Part shown: in pieces, positions 26,943 through 58,151 of the stretch
How the letters are laid out: each line of letters starts with the position of its first letter
How positions within the stretch are numbered: position 1 is the first letter of the stretch
DNA from: Acholeplasma sp.
GTDB taxonomy: Bacteria; Bacillota_I; Bacilli_A; Acholeplasmatales; Acholeplasmataceae
DNA length: 64,000 bases
NCBI GenBank assembly: GCA_003605085.1
Contig: QZKD01000016.1
Location: 1 to 64,000 of the forward strand
Direction: 5' to 3'
Program-made: the position numbers and the translations under genes
Notes under the pieces: generated by a model
Told to the model about the DNA's origin: nothing
Databases searched by the model: none
Seen by the model: the letters and a program-made list of their open reading frames with translations, nothing else

Positions 26943-27947
26943 ATGATGGTTACCATCGATGAAATTGCGAAACTTTCGAAAGTTTCGATATCAACCGTAT
27001 CAAAAGCACTGAATGGCTATACAGAAATCAGCGAAAAAACAAGAAAAAGAATCATTGATATCGCAGATGAACTTGGCTACATGCCAAACGCAACCGCACA
27101 GAGTTTAGTACGCAAACGTTCCAATACTGTCGGTGTTGTTTACGAAGTACAATATGGTTTAAAAAACCTATTTTTCTCGAGTGTGCTTGAAGCATTTAGA
27201 AAGAATATCGAATCGAAGGGATACGATATCTTACTTTTGTCTCATAATACCGATAGTGGTCTGGATTATTTAAGACATTGCCAATCGAAAAATGTGGATG
27301 CCGTTTTAGTGGTATCTGGTGGTGACAACTCGGATGCAATCCATAAACTCTATTTGAGTCAACTCGCTGTTTTAACACTAGATCCAGCAGAAAAAGGACC
27401 CAATTCGATATTTTCTGACTCGTATCATTCGATTAAGCGATCCTGTAAGTATCTTTATGATTTAGGTCATAAGAGAATCGCTTTTATCAACGGATCTTAT
27501 ACCAATTTTATTGGTCGTGAACGCTTAAGAGCCTATCTAGATTTTATTCATGAAAAAGGTCTTGAACCTCTCTATCTTGCTGAACGTTCCAATGAGAAGT
27601 ATAGTTATGAAGAAGGCTATACGACCATGAAAATGATCTTCGAAGCGTATGGTTTACCTGAAGCGGTATGTTCGGTTTCAGACCTTATGGCCATCGGTGC
27701 GATCAATTATTTATACAATCATGGTTTTTCTGTTCCAGGTGATGTTTCAGTCATTGGGTTTGATGATCTCCAGGTATGTGAGATCGTAACCCCAAAATTG
27801 ACAACCATACGTCAAGATTACGAAGCTTTTGGTGAACTTGCGTGTGATACACTTCTTGGTATGATTGAAGGAAAGGTGAGAAAAATTGATCCTATCATTG
27901 TCGATACTGAGATCATTGTCAGAGATTCTTGCCGTAAGCGAAAATAA
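26943..27947 (+). CDS. LacI-family transcriptional regulator 2
   Basis: 334-residue repressor. HTH MVTIDEIAKLSKVSIS with TVSKALNGYTEIS, hinge MPNATAQSLVRKRSNTVGVV, then a sugar-sensor domain ending VIGFDDLQVCEIVTPKLTTIRQDY. ATG 26943 (or 26946) is chosen because the -10 box lies upstream at 26917. The ribosome-binding site (GGATGTG) is poor. It follows the cytoplasmic GH30 and likely regulates part of the beta-glucan locus; which of the two regulators binds which site is not decidable here. A 20-bp palindrome lies inside its 5' coding part. Confidence 0.88.
   Translation: MMVTIDEIAKLSKVSISTVSKALNGYTEISEKTRKRIIDIADELGYMPNATAQSLVRKRSNTVGVVYEVQYGLKNLFFSSVLEAFRKNIESKGYDILLLSHNTDSGLDYLRHCQSKNVDAVLVVSGGDNSDAIHKLYLSQLAVLTLDPAEKGPNSIFSDSYHSIKRSCKYLYDLGHKRIAFINGSYTNFIGRERLRAYLDFIHEKGLEPLYLAERSNEKYSYEEGYTTMKMIFEAYGLPEAVCSVSDLMAIGAINYLYNHGFSVPGDVSVIGFDDLQVCEIVTPKLTTIRQDYEAFGELACDTLLGMIEGKVRKIDPIIVDTEIIVRDSCRKRK
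26968..26987. promoter_or_regulatory. Perfect 20-bp palindrome inside the start of LacI regulator 2
   Basis: CGAAACTTTCGAAAGTTTCG equals its reverse complement. It encodes part of the HTH (AKLSKVS), about 40 bp after the transcription start, a suitable place for an autoregulatory operator. Its ends (CGAAA/TTTCG) echo operator O1. Confidence 0.45.
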
Positions 27948-27955
27948 ATTGAACT

Positions 27956-27982
27956 AGCCTGTTCTTGCAGGCTTTTCTTTTT
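27956..27982 (+). terminator. Intrinsic terminator of LacI regulator 2
   Basis: AGCCTG (27956-27961) pairs with CAGGCT (27968-27973) around TTCTTG, followed by TTTCTTTTT. Confidence 0.85.
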
Positions 27983-28008
27983 CCATACATGCTTTTGATG
28001 GCAAAACC

Positions 28009-28036
28009 TTGTATTTTTGGATAAATCATATATAAT
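28009..28036 (+). promoter_or_regulatory. Promoter of the candidate small RNA
   Basis: TTGTAT (28009-28014) and a perfect TATAAT (28031-28036) are 16 bp apart. It points into the structured non-coding segment that follows. Confidence 0.65.
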
Positions 28037-28040
28037 TAAG

Positions 28041-28156
28041 TTACCTGAGATTCCTTTAAACAATATGATAAGTTCCCCCCCTTTAGGGTGTTCTTATCGT
28101 TTAACTGATTCTCAGTCGCCTTGTCCGCGCCCCCCCTGCGGTCAAGGCATTTTTTA
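28041..28156 (+). ncRNA. Candidate small RNA with two C7 hairpin loops
   Basis: About 115 nt with its own promoter and terminator and no plausible ORF. CTGAGATTC (28045-28053) pairs with GATTCTCAG (28107-28115) with one mismatch. Inside it GATAAG (28067-28072) pairs with CTTATC (28093-28098), carrying a loop with seven Cs (28075-28081), three of which may pair with GGG (28086-28088). A separate 3' hairpin, GCCTTG-CCGC with GCGG-CAAGGC (28118-28148), has a second loop of seven Cs (28130-28136) and a T-run: an intrinsic terminator. C-rich loops are typical of regulatory RNAs that pair with G-rich ribosome-binding sites. I recognise no known family. A leader role for the next gene is less likely because of the terminator. 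Confidence 0.62.
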
Positions 28157-28180
28157 TGGTTTTTTTCGATAACTTGATGG

Positions 28181-28186
28181 TATAAT
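28181..28186 (+). promoter_or_regulatory. -10 box of the response regulator gene
   Basis: TATAAT at 28181-28186, 47 nt before the start codon. No good -35 box; the T-rich stretch at 28150-28166 may serve. Confidence 0.45.
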
Positions 28187-28232
28187 AAGACTACAACAAT
28201 CATTCATCATTTTTTAGAAAAAGAGGTGTCTT

Positions 28233-28922
28233 ATGTCACAAAAAATTCTCATTGTCGAAGATAATATCCTTGTCAGCCGAAGTATAGAAGCGAAACTAAA
28301 AGAAGAAATGTTTGATGTAAAAGCCGTGTTTAATGGTGAAGAAGCAATTAAGCAATTTGACTCTGTCTCCTATGATTGTATACTTCTAGATCTTATGTTG
28401 CCATTAAAGAATGGTGAAGAAGTTCTCAAACACATTCGTTCTAAAGGAGATGTTCCCGTCATTATCATTTCGACCAAAGATACCGATGTTGAAAAAGCGA
28501 TCAACTTAGGCCTTGGTGCTGACGATTACCTCTCAAAACCTTTTTCTATGTTGGAATTAGTCGCTCGAGTGAAAGCTGTTTTGCGCCGATCGCAAAAATC
28601 TCATGAAAAAGAATTAAAAACAGTCATGGAAATTGGTCCACTCACGATCAATTTGAACACATTTGAAGTGAAGAAAGATGGGAAACTCTTAGAATTAACC
28701 TTAAAAGAATTTGAAATACTCAGACTTCTAATCACGCATCCGGATCAAACCTTTTCTAAACAACAAATGTATCGTACCGTATGGGGAGAAGAGTATTATT
28801 ATAACGATAATGTGATCAATGTTCATATACGAAGACTCAGAGAGAAAATTGAAGATGATCCATCACATCCTAAAATTGTGTTGACAATGTGGGGATTCGG
28901 CTACAAATTAGGCCAAGAATAG
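28233..28922 (+). CDS. OmpR/PhoB-family response regulator, orphan
   Basis: 229 residues. The receiver domain (1-115) has the acidic pocket VEDN, phospho-acceptor D53 in LLDLMLP, a conserved Thr/Ser position IIISTKD and the K in DYLSKPF. The winged-helix effector domain (130-228) has LTLKEFEILRLLITHPDQTF and NVINVHIRRLREKIEDDP. No histidine kinase gene lies in the window, so it is an orphan here. Its 3' neighbour is a PAS-like protein behind a terminator. Target genes unknown. Confidence 0.9.
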   Translation: MSQKILIVEDNILVSRSIEAKLKEEMFDVKAVFNGEEAIKQFDSVSYDCILLDLMLPLKNGEEVLKHIRSKGDVPVIIISTKDTDVEKAINLGLGADDYLSKPFSMLELVARVKAVLRRSQKSHEKELKTVMEIGPLTINLNTFEVKKDGKLLELTLKEFEILRLLITHPDQTFSKQQMYRTVWGEEYYYNDNVINVHIRRLREKIEDDPSHPKIVLTMWGFGYKLGQE

Positions 28923-29037: not shown

Positions 29038-29511
29038 GTGCAGACATTAAACATCACATGGGCTTTTTACTTAGCATACAACCATCTTAAGGGTGAACTT
29101 TTTTTACGTTCATCAAATGCATGCCAAACCGATCATGAAACCCCATCTGAGATAAATTTAAATTTAGGACAAATGAAATCAATCATTCATAAATATGATT
29201 TTCGGAAATTTCAATACTTCTCTGAACGATTGTTTAAAGAGCCTTTTGATACGATGCTTCGATTAAAATGTGAAAATACACAAGAGTATATAAGAACACA
29301 AGCGATATGTGAGTCGACATCGAATGGATTTCACTGTGTCTTGATTGAGGACAGACGTTATCATGAATTATCAAAAAAACTTGCTTCAAGTAAAATCACA
29401 GAAGCAAATTTCAACTGGTTGGATGAAACTCTTACACACTATGAGTCTTTAAAGCACTTAAAAACAATCAAACAACATTTAACACAGATGATCATGAGAC
29501 AAACGAATTAA
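29038..29511 (+). CDS. Small protein with divergent PAS-like C-terminal half
   Basis: 157 residues, soluble, starting with GTG 29038 after AGGAGGGGATAAC. Residues about 60-120 (FDTMLRLKCENTQEYIRTQA then FHCVLIEDRRYHELSKKL) resemble the late strands and exit helix of a PAS domain (the DITERK-type end). No kinase, GGDEF or HTH domain follows, only a short helical tail. It could be a sensor or remnant associated with the orphan response regulator 116 nt upstream. Function not assigned; the PAS call is by pattern only. Confidence 0.5.
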   Translation: MQTLNITWAFYLAYNHLKGELFLRSSNACQTDHETPSEINLNLGQMKSIIHKYDFRKFQYFSERLFKEPFDTMLRLKCENTQEYIRTQAICESTSNGFHCVLIEDRRYHELSKKLASSKITEANFNWLDETLTHYESLKHLKTIKQHLTQMIMRQTN

Positions 29512-49542: not shown

Positions 49543-49968
49543 TTAGAATAGGCTATAAATGAATATAGACGATAAAATACTTTGCGTAGTCATGATGACG
49601 ATGAAAAGGATTAGATAAAACATGATGAACTGAAAATGGAGATGATGTCCGACGCTCGAATCGTCGCGATATCCTCCTTTTTTGATGAAGGGATAGATCC
49701 ATTTATAGATGATGAAAAAACTGAATCCAAAGCCAAGTAATCCAAAAATTCCCGAGACATTGGATGTTTGACCGTATCCAAAAAGCGATTCAGACATCAT
49801 GTATAAAGTCATATCTGCGATAAAAAGGAGTAGAGAAACTCCCATGGCTAACCCAAGATGTCGATTTAATTTTTGTCCATTCAATTTTGGTAATTGTTTT
49901 AGATGATAAAAGAAAAAGATGAAAAAAATAGCGGTTGAAAGTAGGCTCAATAATTGGAATGTTAACAT
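49543..49968 (-). CDS. Four-helix membrane protein of unknown function
   Basis: 141 residues with four membrane segments (LLSLLSTAIFFIFFFYHL, LAMGVSLLLFIADMTLYMM, ISGIFGLLGFGFSFFIIYKW, MFYLILFIVIMTTQSILSSI). ATG 49968 follows an unusual GGGGGG ribosome-binding stretch (minus strand). Convergent with mgsA. No family recognised. Confidence 0.6.
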   Translation of the reverse strand: MLTFQLLSLLSTAIFFIFFFYHLKQLPKLNGQKLNRHLGLAMGVSLLLFIADMTLYMMSESLFGYGQTSNVSGIFGLLGFGFSFFIIYKWIYPFIKKGGYRDDSSVGHHLHFQFIMFYLILFIVIMTTQSILSSIFIYSLF

Positions 49969-50032
49969 AGGTCCCCCCAAAAGATGTGTTTACATCAAGT
50001 ATAACAAAAAACTGCACGTTTGTGCAGTCTCA

Positions 50033-56475: not shown

Positions 56476-57342
56476 ATGATTTTAGCATCACATGCAAAAA
56501 AGTATTATGGAAGTATCAGAGGAATCGAAGATCTGTCACTCGAAGTAAAATCAGGAGAGATCTTTGGTTTTGTAGGGCCCAATGGTTCAGGAAAAACCAC
56601 ATTTATTCGTAGTCTTTTGGGACTTTTGAAACTAGATTCAGGAACGATTCACCTACTCAGTAAAGAAGTGAAAGTAGGCGAGCAAGATCATTTTTCCAAA
56701 GTGGGATATATGCCATCGGAGTCCTTCTTTTTCAATGAACTTAAAGTGAAAGATATTTTAAAATTTTTTCAAAGTACACGCCCTGTTGATCCAAAGTATC
56801 TCGAACACTTAATTGAACACCTCGATGTTGACTTAAATAAGAAGTTTGGCTCCTTATCCTTTGGGAATAAAAAGAAAATCGGGATTATAGTTGCGATGAT
56901 GCATCAACCTGAAGTTCTTATTTTAGATGAACCCACCGCAGGTCTTGATCCGTTAATTCAGTCTCGCTTTTTGGAACTACTCGTTGAACAAAAGATGAAG
57001 GGGACAACCGTTTTACTATCGTCACACGTGTTAAAAGAAATAGAAAAAGTATGTGATCGGGTCGCGTTGATCAAAGAAGGTTCTCTGCTCTTTACACGTC
57101 GTATGGAAGATATTCGCAAAGAAGAAAGTAAGCGAGTGATCGTGTGGCCAAATCATCAGAATTTAGTGCTTGAAGGACTTACCTATCTACGAGATGAAAA
57201 TGGGGCTTCCCATTATGCATATCAAGGGGATGTCAATCTATTGATGCGTTATTTATCTTCTTATCACTTTAAAGATATGGTGATTCGAAATATTGATCTA
57301 GAAGAACTCTTTCAAGTGTTTTATGAAAGGGGGGATGTATGA
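56476..57342 (+). CDS. ABC transporter ATP-binding protein (exporter type)
   Basis: 288 residues, one ABC domain: Walker A GPNGSGKTT, signature LSFGNKKKIG (degenerate form of LSGGQ), Walker B VLILDEPTAGLDPL, H-loop LLSSHVLKE. The CcmA/YtrB-like type that works with ABC-2 permeases; it has no MalK/MsmX regulatory extension. ATG 56476 after GAGAGGTGAAAGG. The end overlaps the permease start by 4 nt. Substrate unknown. Confidence 0.9.
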   Translation: MILASHAKKYYGSIRGIEDLSLEVKSGEIFGFVGPNGSGKTTFIRSLLGLLKLDSGTIHLLSKEVKVGEQDHFSKVGYMPSESFFFNELKVKDILKFFQSTRPVDPKYLEHLIEHLDVDLNKKFGSLSFGNKKKIGIIVAMMHQPEVLILDEPTAGLDPLIQSRFLELLVEQKMKGTTVLLSSHVLKEIEKVCDRVALIKEGSLLFTRRMEDIRKEESKRVIVWPNHQNLVLEGLTYLRDENGASHYAYQGDVNLLMRYLSSYHFKDMVIRNIDLEELFQVFYERGDV

Positions 57343-58151
57343 TGCGACTCTTTCGCTTAGAATTCAAACGGAGCATCAAAAGTAATCTCATTTGGTCTAT
57401 TTCCTTAGGTGTGACTATGTTTTCGATTATCATCATCTATCCCATGGTGATGGACATGATGGATGCACTTAACGAAATGATCGATTATTTGGAAAGCATT
57501 AACTCAAGTTTTGTGGAGTTTATTAATGACTTTGGGGGCATTCCACAAAATGGAATTGAGTATTTTGCAACAGAAGGTGCGATGATTCTGCAAATTGCTG
57601 CTGGAATTTATGCAGCGATGATGGGGTATCAAATCATCAACAAAGACGATAAAGAAAAAACTGTCGAAGTACTCTATACATTACCCATTCACAGGGTCAG
57701 TTATCTTTTTCAAAAGATGTTTGTAGTTTTCGTTGAAACATTCATCTTTATGGCGACACAAGTTCTCTTTGTTTTGATTGGTTTTATGATTGTATCACCC
57801 AATGAAGCGATCGGTGAACTCTTTATCTTTGGTTTATTGGATATGGGCATGATGCTTATGATCAGTTACTTATCGATGGGATTAGCACTTATTCTAAAAC
57901 CACAATCATCATCGTTTATTCCTATGGCTATCCCCATTCCACTTTATGTCATCACAACGATTGCGTATGCTACGGATAATGCGACATTAAAACTGCTTAA
58001 ATACATTTCACCATTCACTTTTGCTGAACCCGTAGGTATCTTAAAGGATCATACGGATTTTGAATGGCTTAACTTTATAATCTATTCGATCTTTACGCTT
58101 GCTGTGATTGTATTCTCAATTTATAAGTTTAGAAGAAGAGAAATTGTTTAA
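57339..58151 (+). CDS. ABC-2 type transporter permease
   Basis: 270 residues with about six membrane segments and the ABC-2 loop GYQIINKDDKEKTVEVLYTL with PIHRVSYLFQK. Partner of the ATPase just upstream. The ribosome-binding stretch AAAGGGGGG (57326-57334) is unusually G-rich and is an exact complement of a C-rich loop of the small RNA candidate at 28041. Confidence 0.88.
   Translation: MMRLFRLEFKRSIKSNLIWSISLGVTMFSIIIIYPMVMDMMDALNEMIDYLESINSSFVEFINDFGGIPQNGIEYFATEGAMILQIAAGIYAAMMGYQIINKDDKEKTVEVLYTLPIHRVSYLFQKMFVVFVETFIFMATQVLFVLIGFMIVSPNEAIGELFIFGLLDMGMMLMISYLSMGLALILKPQSSSFIPMAIPIPLYVITTIAYATDNATLKLLKYISPFTFAEPVGILKDHTDFEWLNFIIYSIFTLAVIVFSIYKFRRREIV

Follow-up and report, generated by a model that had tools for sequence, protein, structure and literature searches.

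A candidate small regulatory RNA with conserved C-rich loops, linked to an orphan response regulator gene in wall-less Acholeplasmataceae

The window analyzed here (the whole stretch of 64,000 nucleotides at positions 1 to 64,000 of contig QZKD01000016.1, assembly GCA_003605085.1) comes from a 1.72 Mb genome in 46 contigs, which belongs to the same Acholeplasmataceae genus as Peloplasma aerotolerans, a free-living wall-less mollicute (PMC11122141). On its forward strand, at about positions 28042-28157 and between the gene of a LacI-type regulator and that of an orphan OmpR-type response regulator (RR), lies the gene of a ~116 nt RNA, here termed small RNA (sRNA) A, whose presence can, on the evidence of the sequence, be taken as real. 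In keeping with a preliminary description of this DNA, which noted some 150 bp of gene-free sequence, the stretch can in practice be regarded as free of genes, since the sole open reading frame overlapping sRNA A is an 81-aa antisense frame that extends into the LacI gene. sRNA A is predicted to be a previously uncatalogued regulatory RNA of free-living wall-less Acholeplasmataceae, and its parts (helices P1 to P4), with those of the neighboring RR gene, are as follows.

28009-28014, + strand: -35-like hexamer TTGTAT (from the sequence; spacer of 16 nt to the -10 box)
28031-28036, + strand: -10 box of sRNA A, TATAAT (from the sequence; homologs have TATAAT at the same position)
28042-28157, + strand: predicted transcript of sRNA A (from the fold, a match to covariance model R1 at 28042-28157, and homologs)
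28045-28050, + strand: 5' arm, CUGAGA, of closing stem P1, with the 3' arm at 28110-28115 (fold and covariation)
28056-28061, + strand: 5' arm, UUAAAC, of stem P2, with the 3' arm at 28099-28104 (fold and comparison of homologs)
28062-28066, + strand: 5-nt bulge on the 5' side only (fold; retained by most homologs)
28067-28098, + strand: inner hairpin P3 (fold and covariation)
28075-28081, + strand: genome-specific C7 of P3, overlapping the CCUUU element (from the sequence)
28080-28084, + strand: conserved CCUUU loop element of P3 (comparison of homologs)
28118-28148, + strand: terminator hairpin P4, 10 pairs of which were assessed for covariation (fold, alignment and covariation)
28130-28136, + strand: conserved C7 loop of P4, the proposed anti-Shine-Dalgarno (anti-SD) seed
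28150-28155, + strand: U-run of the intrinsic terminator (from the sequence)
28181-28186, + strand: TATAAT, the RR gene's own -10 box, 3' of the sRNA A terminator (from the sequence; TATAAT-like boxes are visible there in relatives)
28233-28922, + strand: gene of the orphan OmpR-type RR, with Response_reg and Trans_reg_C domain matches

The promoter proposed in the preliminary description stands in part: the -10 box is perfect, but the -35 hexamer agrees with the consensus at only 3/6 positions, and because of this poor -35 the promoter was missed by a generic promoter scan. The 5' end given above is an estimate, good to a few nucleotides, based on the position of the -10 box. In contrast, the closed stem, the inner hairpin and the terminator with its U-run are borne out by both the sequence and the fold, the minimum free energy (MFE) being -42.1 kcal/mol compared with -18.06 +/- 2.95 for dinucleotide shuffles (z -8.15), none of which (0/200) was equally stable. 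The C7 of P3 is not a clean loop: in the MFE structure, three of the seven Cs are base-paired, with GGG.

Among the genomes compared, which are mostly draft or metagenome assemblies, a DNA similarity search (Blast) yielded one close homolog of sRNA A (G011, 94% identical), and the remaining matches, short AT-rich stretches, were dismissed. Further homologs were located by using the downstream RR gene as an anchor and reading the intergenic region upstream of it. Of the 88 genomes of the family, 23 have an RR ortholog (16 in this genus, 5 in genus g15 and 2 in genus g8), and in all 23 an A-like RNA lies just upstream of the RR gene, 21 of these with the terminator C-loop. Within the genus, the RR-anchored loci share a layout in which a -10 box precedes a closing stem, an inner hairpin and a terminator hairpin, and a 5-nt bulge is usually present on the 5' side. 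The gene upstream of sRNA A varies (LacI-type regulator or lipoprotein), and it is therefore with the RR that sRNA A goes, a linkage that suggests common control or action in the same response. The closest models to the RR are YycF, MtrA and VanR, none of them above cut-off, and no histidine kinase gene was seen adjoining it. A covariance model built from five sRNA A members (R1) retrieves 14 of the 16 RR-linked loci of the genus together with three loci of another genus. In two genomes of genus g9, which lack the RR, a short C-loop RNA lies 3' of a sugar kinase gene (L103:1-212, L182); past this RNA, the end of the G054 contig carries a fragment with a by-eye resemblance to a TFIIB/cyclin fold, possibly an assembly or contamination issue.

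Covariation of the stems, on which the proposal had been staked beforehand, was found both for sRNA A and for a sibling described below. A plain MAFFT alignment with RNAalifold recovered only the terminator stem (7/11 pairs with two-sided changes), and a structure-guided covariance model and a comparison helix by helix were required to go further. When the helices of each sequence were taken as it folds by itself and brought into register (12-16 distinct versions), P1 is 94.7% paired compared with 50% in column shuffles and the apical stem of P3 is 93.8% paired compared with 60%, figures that this way of choosing the helices biases towards pairing. The figure for P4, 99.2% paired compared with 84% and with two-sided changes in 8 of 10 pairs, is less exposed to this effect. 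Eight homologs tested for folding gave z values of -4.9 to -9.6.

While the stem sequences thus turn over with compensatory changes, two loops stay constant: the inner hairpin retains CCUUU (or CUUU), and the terminator retains C5-C8 in 21/21 homologs compared. The preliminary description had pointed to duplicated C7 loops, and C7 runs are indeed present in both hairpins, but only the terminator C-loop is conserved. As a family trait the duplication fails: the conserved pair is CCUUU and C5-8, and the C7 of P3 is private to the source genome among those compared, its 94%-identical nearest relative having UUUCACCCC in P3, that is, CACCCC, at two substitutions' distance.

A pattern search of the relatives for C-runs followed by T-runs uncovered sRNA B, the sibling of sRNA A. 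It is ~82 nt long, has a strong promoter, and occupies another locus, outside the window (G000:C19:5801-5882 = L136:1402-1483), between ABC-transporter permease and esterase genes and upstream of the latter in the genomes inspected. It presents CCUUU in its 5' hairpin and C7 in its terminator, and it covaries as well, with 8 pairs changed on both sides compared with 3.3 expected. Its covariance model (R2) matches 18 of 20 genus genomes, one of the 18 at a contig end, and also, weakly, the sRNA A of g15, g8 and three genus genomes. Three genomes of the genus that are without the RR (G009, G015 and G018) retain sRNA B. Outside the Acholeplasmataceae, R2 had no match among 395 genomes drawn from the class, and no Rfam family matched sRNA B. 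Upstream of the sRNA B promoters there is a weak excess of direct repeats at 11-nt spacing (10 compared with 3.2 expected), which is the geometry of OmpR-type regulators.

Two further C-run strings recur in these genomes. One, seen in several genomes of the genus, is a C-run/T-run string, CCCCCCTTATTA(T/C)GCTTTTT (G000:C7:11543, G010:C94:11303, G016:C121:41329, G013:C80:23251), and the other, seen in three, is CCCCCC(G/A)TTGGATA(A)GGGTTTT (G014:C45:9620, G004:C140:7308, G019:C222:1590), perhaps another C-loop terminator.

If the C-loop binds runs of G in ribosome-binding sites (RBSs), the genes with such RBSs should have a common function. Genes of the genus with GGGGGG 3-14 nt from an ATG (G6-RBS genes) were picked by position, not by product, and classed as membrane or secreted by a fixed hydrophobicity rule; on these heuristic starts and membrane calls, 39/46 encode membrane or secreted proteins, or 35/42 (83%) with tighter spacing. 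Genes with ordinary Shine-Dalgarno (SD) sequences, from stretches of two genus genomes taken without selection, form the background at 112-116/308 (36-38%), so that the excess has a p value of 7e-9 to 2e-8. It is robust to several thresholds and to a protein-length ceiling, and amounts to 30/36 without the source genome. In 464 kb of unselected sequence from the source genome, the membrane or secreted share is 31-35% at runs of G1-4, 65% at G5 and 2/2 at G6, with 13/19 for RBSs of G5 and longer compared with 127/387 for the others (p 0.002). The suggestion that G-rich RBSs are natural targets thus gains support from this envelope bias. When 406 genes were ranked by duplex energy with the terminator C-loop, the top nine were all membrane or secreted. 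The same ranking shows no membrane or secreted bias in G055, which is without the RNA. Two predicted targets with GGGGGG lie within the window.

57329-57334, + strand: predicted target RBS before the gene of a 270-aa membrane protein (57339-58151), duplex -15.8
49973-49978, - strand: predicted target RBS before the gene of a 141-aa membrane protein (49543-49968, - strand), duplex -15.1

Many matches to GGGGGG-N-ATG in g8 were not used as support, there being hardly any real starts among the loci fetched.

The gene anatomy, its conservation and covariation, the sibling, the linkage to the RR and the envelope bias of the G6-RBS genes are read from the sequences themselves, and from these we infer transcription of sRNA A, pairing with RBSs, repression, and control by the RR. 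The reading that we prefer, to which we would assign a probability of roughly 0.6, is that sRNA A is a trans-acting, RR-linked RNA that represses the translation of envelope mRNAs at G-run RBSs. It would be independently transcribed and act in trans in Peloplasma-like Acholeplasmataceae and two related genera. The CCUUU loop would be held out by a rigid stem and the C5-8 loop by the terminator hairpin; both loops resemble the anti-SD end of 16S rRNA. The C-loop, held on a stable stem, would make the first contact with a run of G5-7 just upstream of a start codon, and this pairing would block ribosome binding, preferentially on mRNAs that encode membrane proteins, lipoproteins and secreted proteins, while CCUUU may extend or replace the contact at AAAGG cores. 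With the same two loops, sRNA B would share the targets of sRNA A, and the orphan RR would control sRNA A or act in the same response. A bolder and tentative extension, which we hold with less than even confidence, is a ‘G-run code’, by which the unlinked siblings would address envelope mRNAs as a class through G5-G7 RBSs. If so, the gain or loss of Gs would bring a gene into the regulon or take it out, and this would account for the conservation of the class in the face of changing member genes.

Several observations weigh against repression of envelope mRNAs by sRNA A. Two RR-bearing genomes, G008 and G013 (L031:1275-1385, L032:1272-1383), have lost the C-loop of sRNA A, yet keep its sibling; the A-like 5' domain remains, but GGGGCATGA...TCATGCCC, with no C-loop and no clear T-run, stands in place of the 3' hairpin. 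Direct repeats of the OmpR type upstream of sRNA A are not above chance, and no shared RR-binding repeat was found there. Loop 1 (CCUUU), when compared with the RBSs, shows no functional target bias. Few orthologous genes have a G6 RBS in common between species, and then only as a few two-genome pairs, so that no conserved core target emerged. In Acholeplasmataceae genera without detected RNA, meaning those with no match to the present covariance models, G6-RBS genes are likewise somewhat envelope-rich (19/37, or 51%, compared with a background of 21/74 taken from one of these genera, p 0.02). These last two points also favor the view that sRNA A is a real anti-SD sRNA whose true targets are few and not recognized here, the envelope bias having another cause, such as the selection of stronger SDs on membrane-protein genes. 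Against this view, the genus with the RNAs shows a significantly stronger bias (35/42 compared with 19/37, p 0.003), and in the source genome the bias is absent at G4 and climbs at G5-G6; the view is thus doubtful, if still worth serious consideration. The envelope bias is in part general and in part goes with the RNAs, as genera without them are also envelope-rich, though less so.

The position of the RNA directly upstream of and co-oriented with the RR gene in 23/23 RR-bearing genomes, together with its complex closed structure ending in a terminator, would also suit a cis-acting leader or attenuator, that is, a 5' part of the RR transcript with a regulated terminator that responds, for example, to a ligand. 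However, a second -10 box lies between terminator and RR start in the source genome, with similar boxes in relatives, no antiterminator alternative stands out (the MFE structure equals the centroid), the sibling with the same loops precedes an unrelated esterase gene, and the two g9 genomes have a C-loop RNA without the RR, all of which renders a leader improbable. Still less probable is that sRNA A acts in trans on a protein and not on mRNAs, binding or titrating, for instance, a cold-shock-like protein that recognizes C-rich or pyrimidine sequence; loops conserved as single-stranded C/U-rich sequence in the absence of a conserved target gene would fit it, but the envelope bias of the G6-RBS genes would be unexpected if the loop bound only a protein. 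Homopolymer runs are mutable, and an ordinary pair of stable hairpins with a terminator, devoid of regulatory function, might by chance carry C-runs. This is scarcely credible given C5-8 in every homolog compared while the stems were rewritten, and given the same loops in an unlinked sibling.

Under the preferred reading of a trans-acting repressor, the closest parallel is LhrC of Listeria, which binds the G-rich region before a surface-protein gene by UCCC motifs located in a stem-loop, in single-stranded sequence and in the terminator loop, and the expression of which depends on LisRK (PMC4132741). Like LhrC1-5 of Listeria monocytogenes, sRNA A has a sibling and C/U-rich motifs in a stem-loop and the terminator loop (here CCUUU and C5-8), a resemblance of mode, not of sequence; its pairing with a G-rich region upstream of the start codon is predicted only, and the surface-protein target of LhrC and its induction by envelope stress through a two-component system (PMC4132741) have as counterparts predicted targets and linkage to the RR gene. 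The differences are the uninterrupted C5-8 in place of UCCC, the closed stem with a 5-nt bulge, an RR encoded next door with no obvious kinase, and the wall-less Acholeplasmataceae host. The csRNAs of Streptococcus (CiaRH regulon) are also several related sRNAs with a 5' stem-loop, a terminator and SD-complementary sequence, tied to a two-component response regulator, a tie that for sRNA A is one of gene linkage (PMC3091779); with regard to the direct repeat of CiaR-type promoters, there is no excess upstream of sRNA A and the weak excess at spacing 11 upstream of sRNA B. In RNAIII, RsaE and RsaA of S. aureus, pairing at mRNA RBSs is seeded by a C-rich motif that is accessible in a loop or in single-stranded sequence (PMC3053349, PMC3961350), but these RNAs differ in architecture and host, and no covariance match links them to sRNA A. 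On its modeled fold, sRNA A has the accessible, RBS-complementary C-rich loop of anti-SD sRNAs in low-GC Gram-positives.

In agreement with the preliminary description, which knew of no matching RNA family, a cmscan of positions 27940-28240 (to E 10) matched no Rfam family to sRNA A or its surroundings beyond chance matches to eukaryotic families, and hence no bacterial sRNA family such as LhrC. 6S RNA was rejected for want of an Rfam match and because sRNA A has a small 5-nt bulge and no large central bubble; riboswitches and other Rfam families were rejected as unmatched. Plasmid and phage collections gave no match. By covariance search, sRNA A is not a member of the LhrC, csRNA or S. aureus C-rich sRNA families, and by analogy it most likely works like LhrC without being a recognized member of that family. 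In the literature searched, no earlier description of a conserved trans-acting sRNA in Acholeplasmataceae was found.

Significant here is that, in two covarying sRNAs, hardly anything beyond two anti-SD-like loops is conserved, in the same genomes in which a sequence class of RBSs is tied to envelope proteins. If confirmed, this would be a simple rule that could let a single RNA motif tune the entire membrane proteome of a wall-less bacterium, and LhrC-like envelope control would reach, or have arisen again in, cells without a wall.

3' of the RR gene lies the gene of a 157-aa protein (29038-29508), which has no Pfam or NCBIfam match; a similar-looking gene is found downstream of the RR in g15. 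With an RBS of GGAGGGG and a GTG start, the 157-aa gene is itself a predicted target of the C-loop (duplex -12.0).
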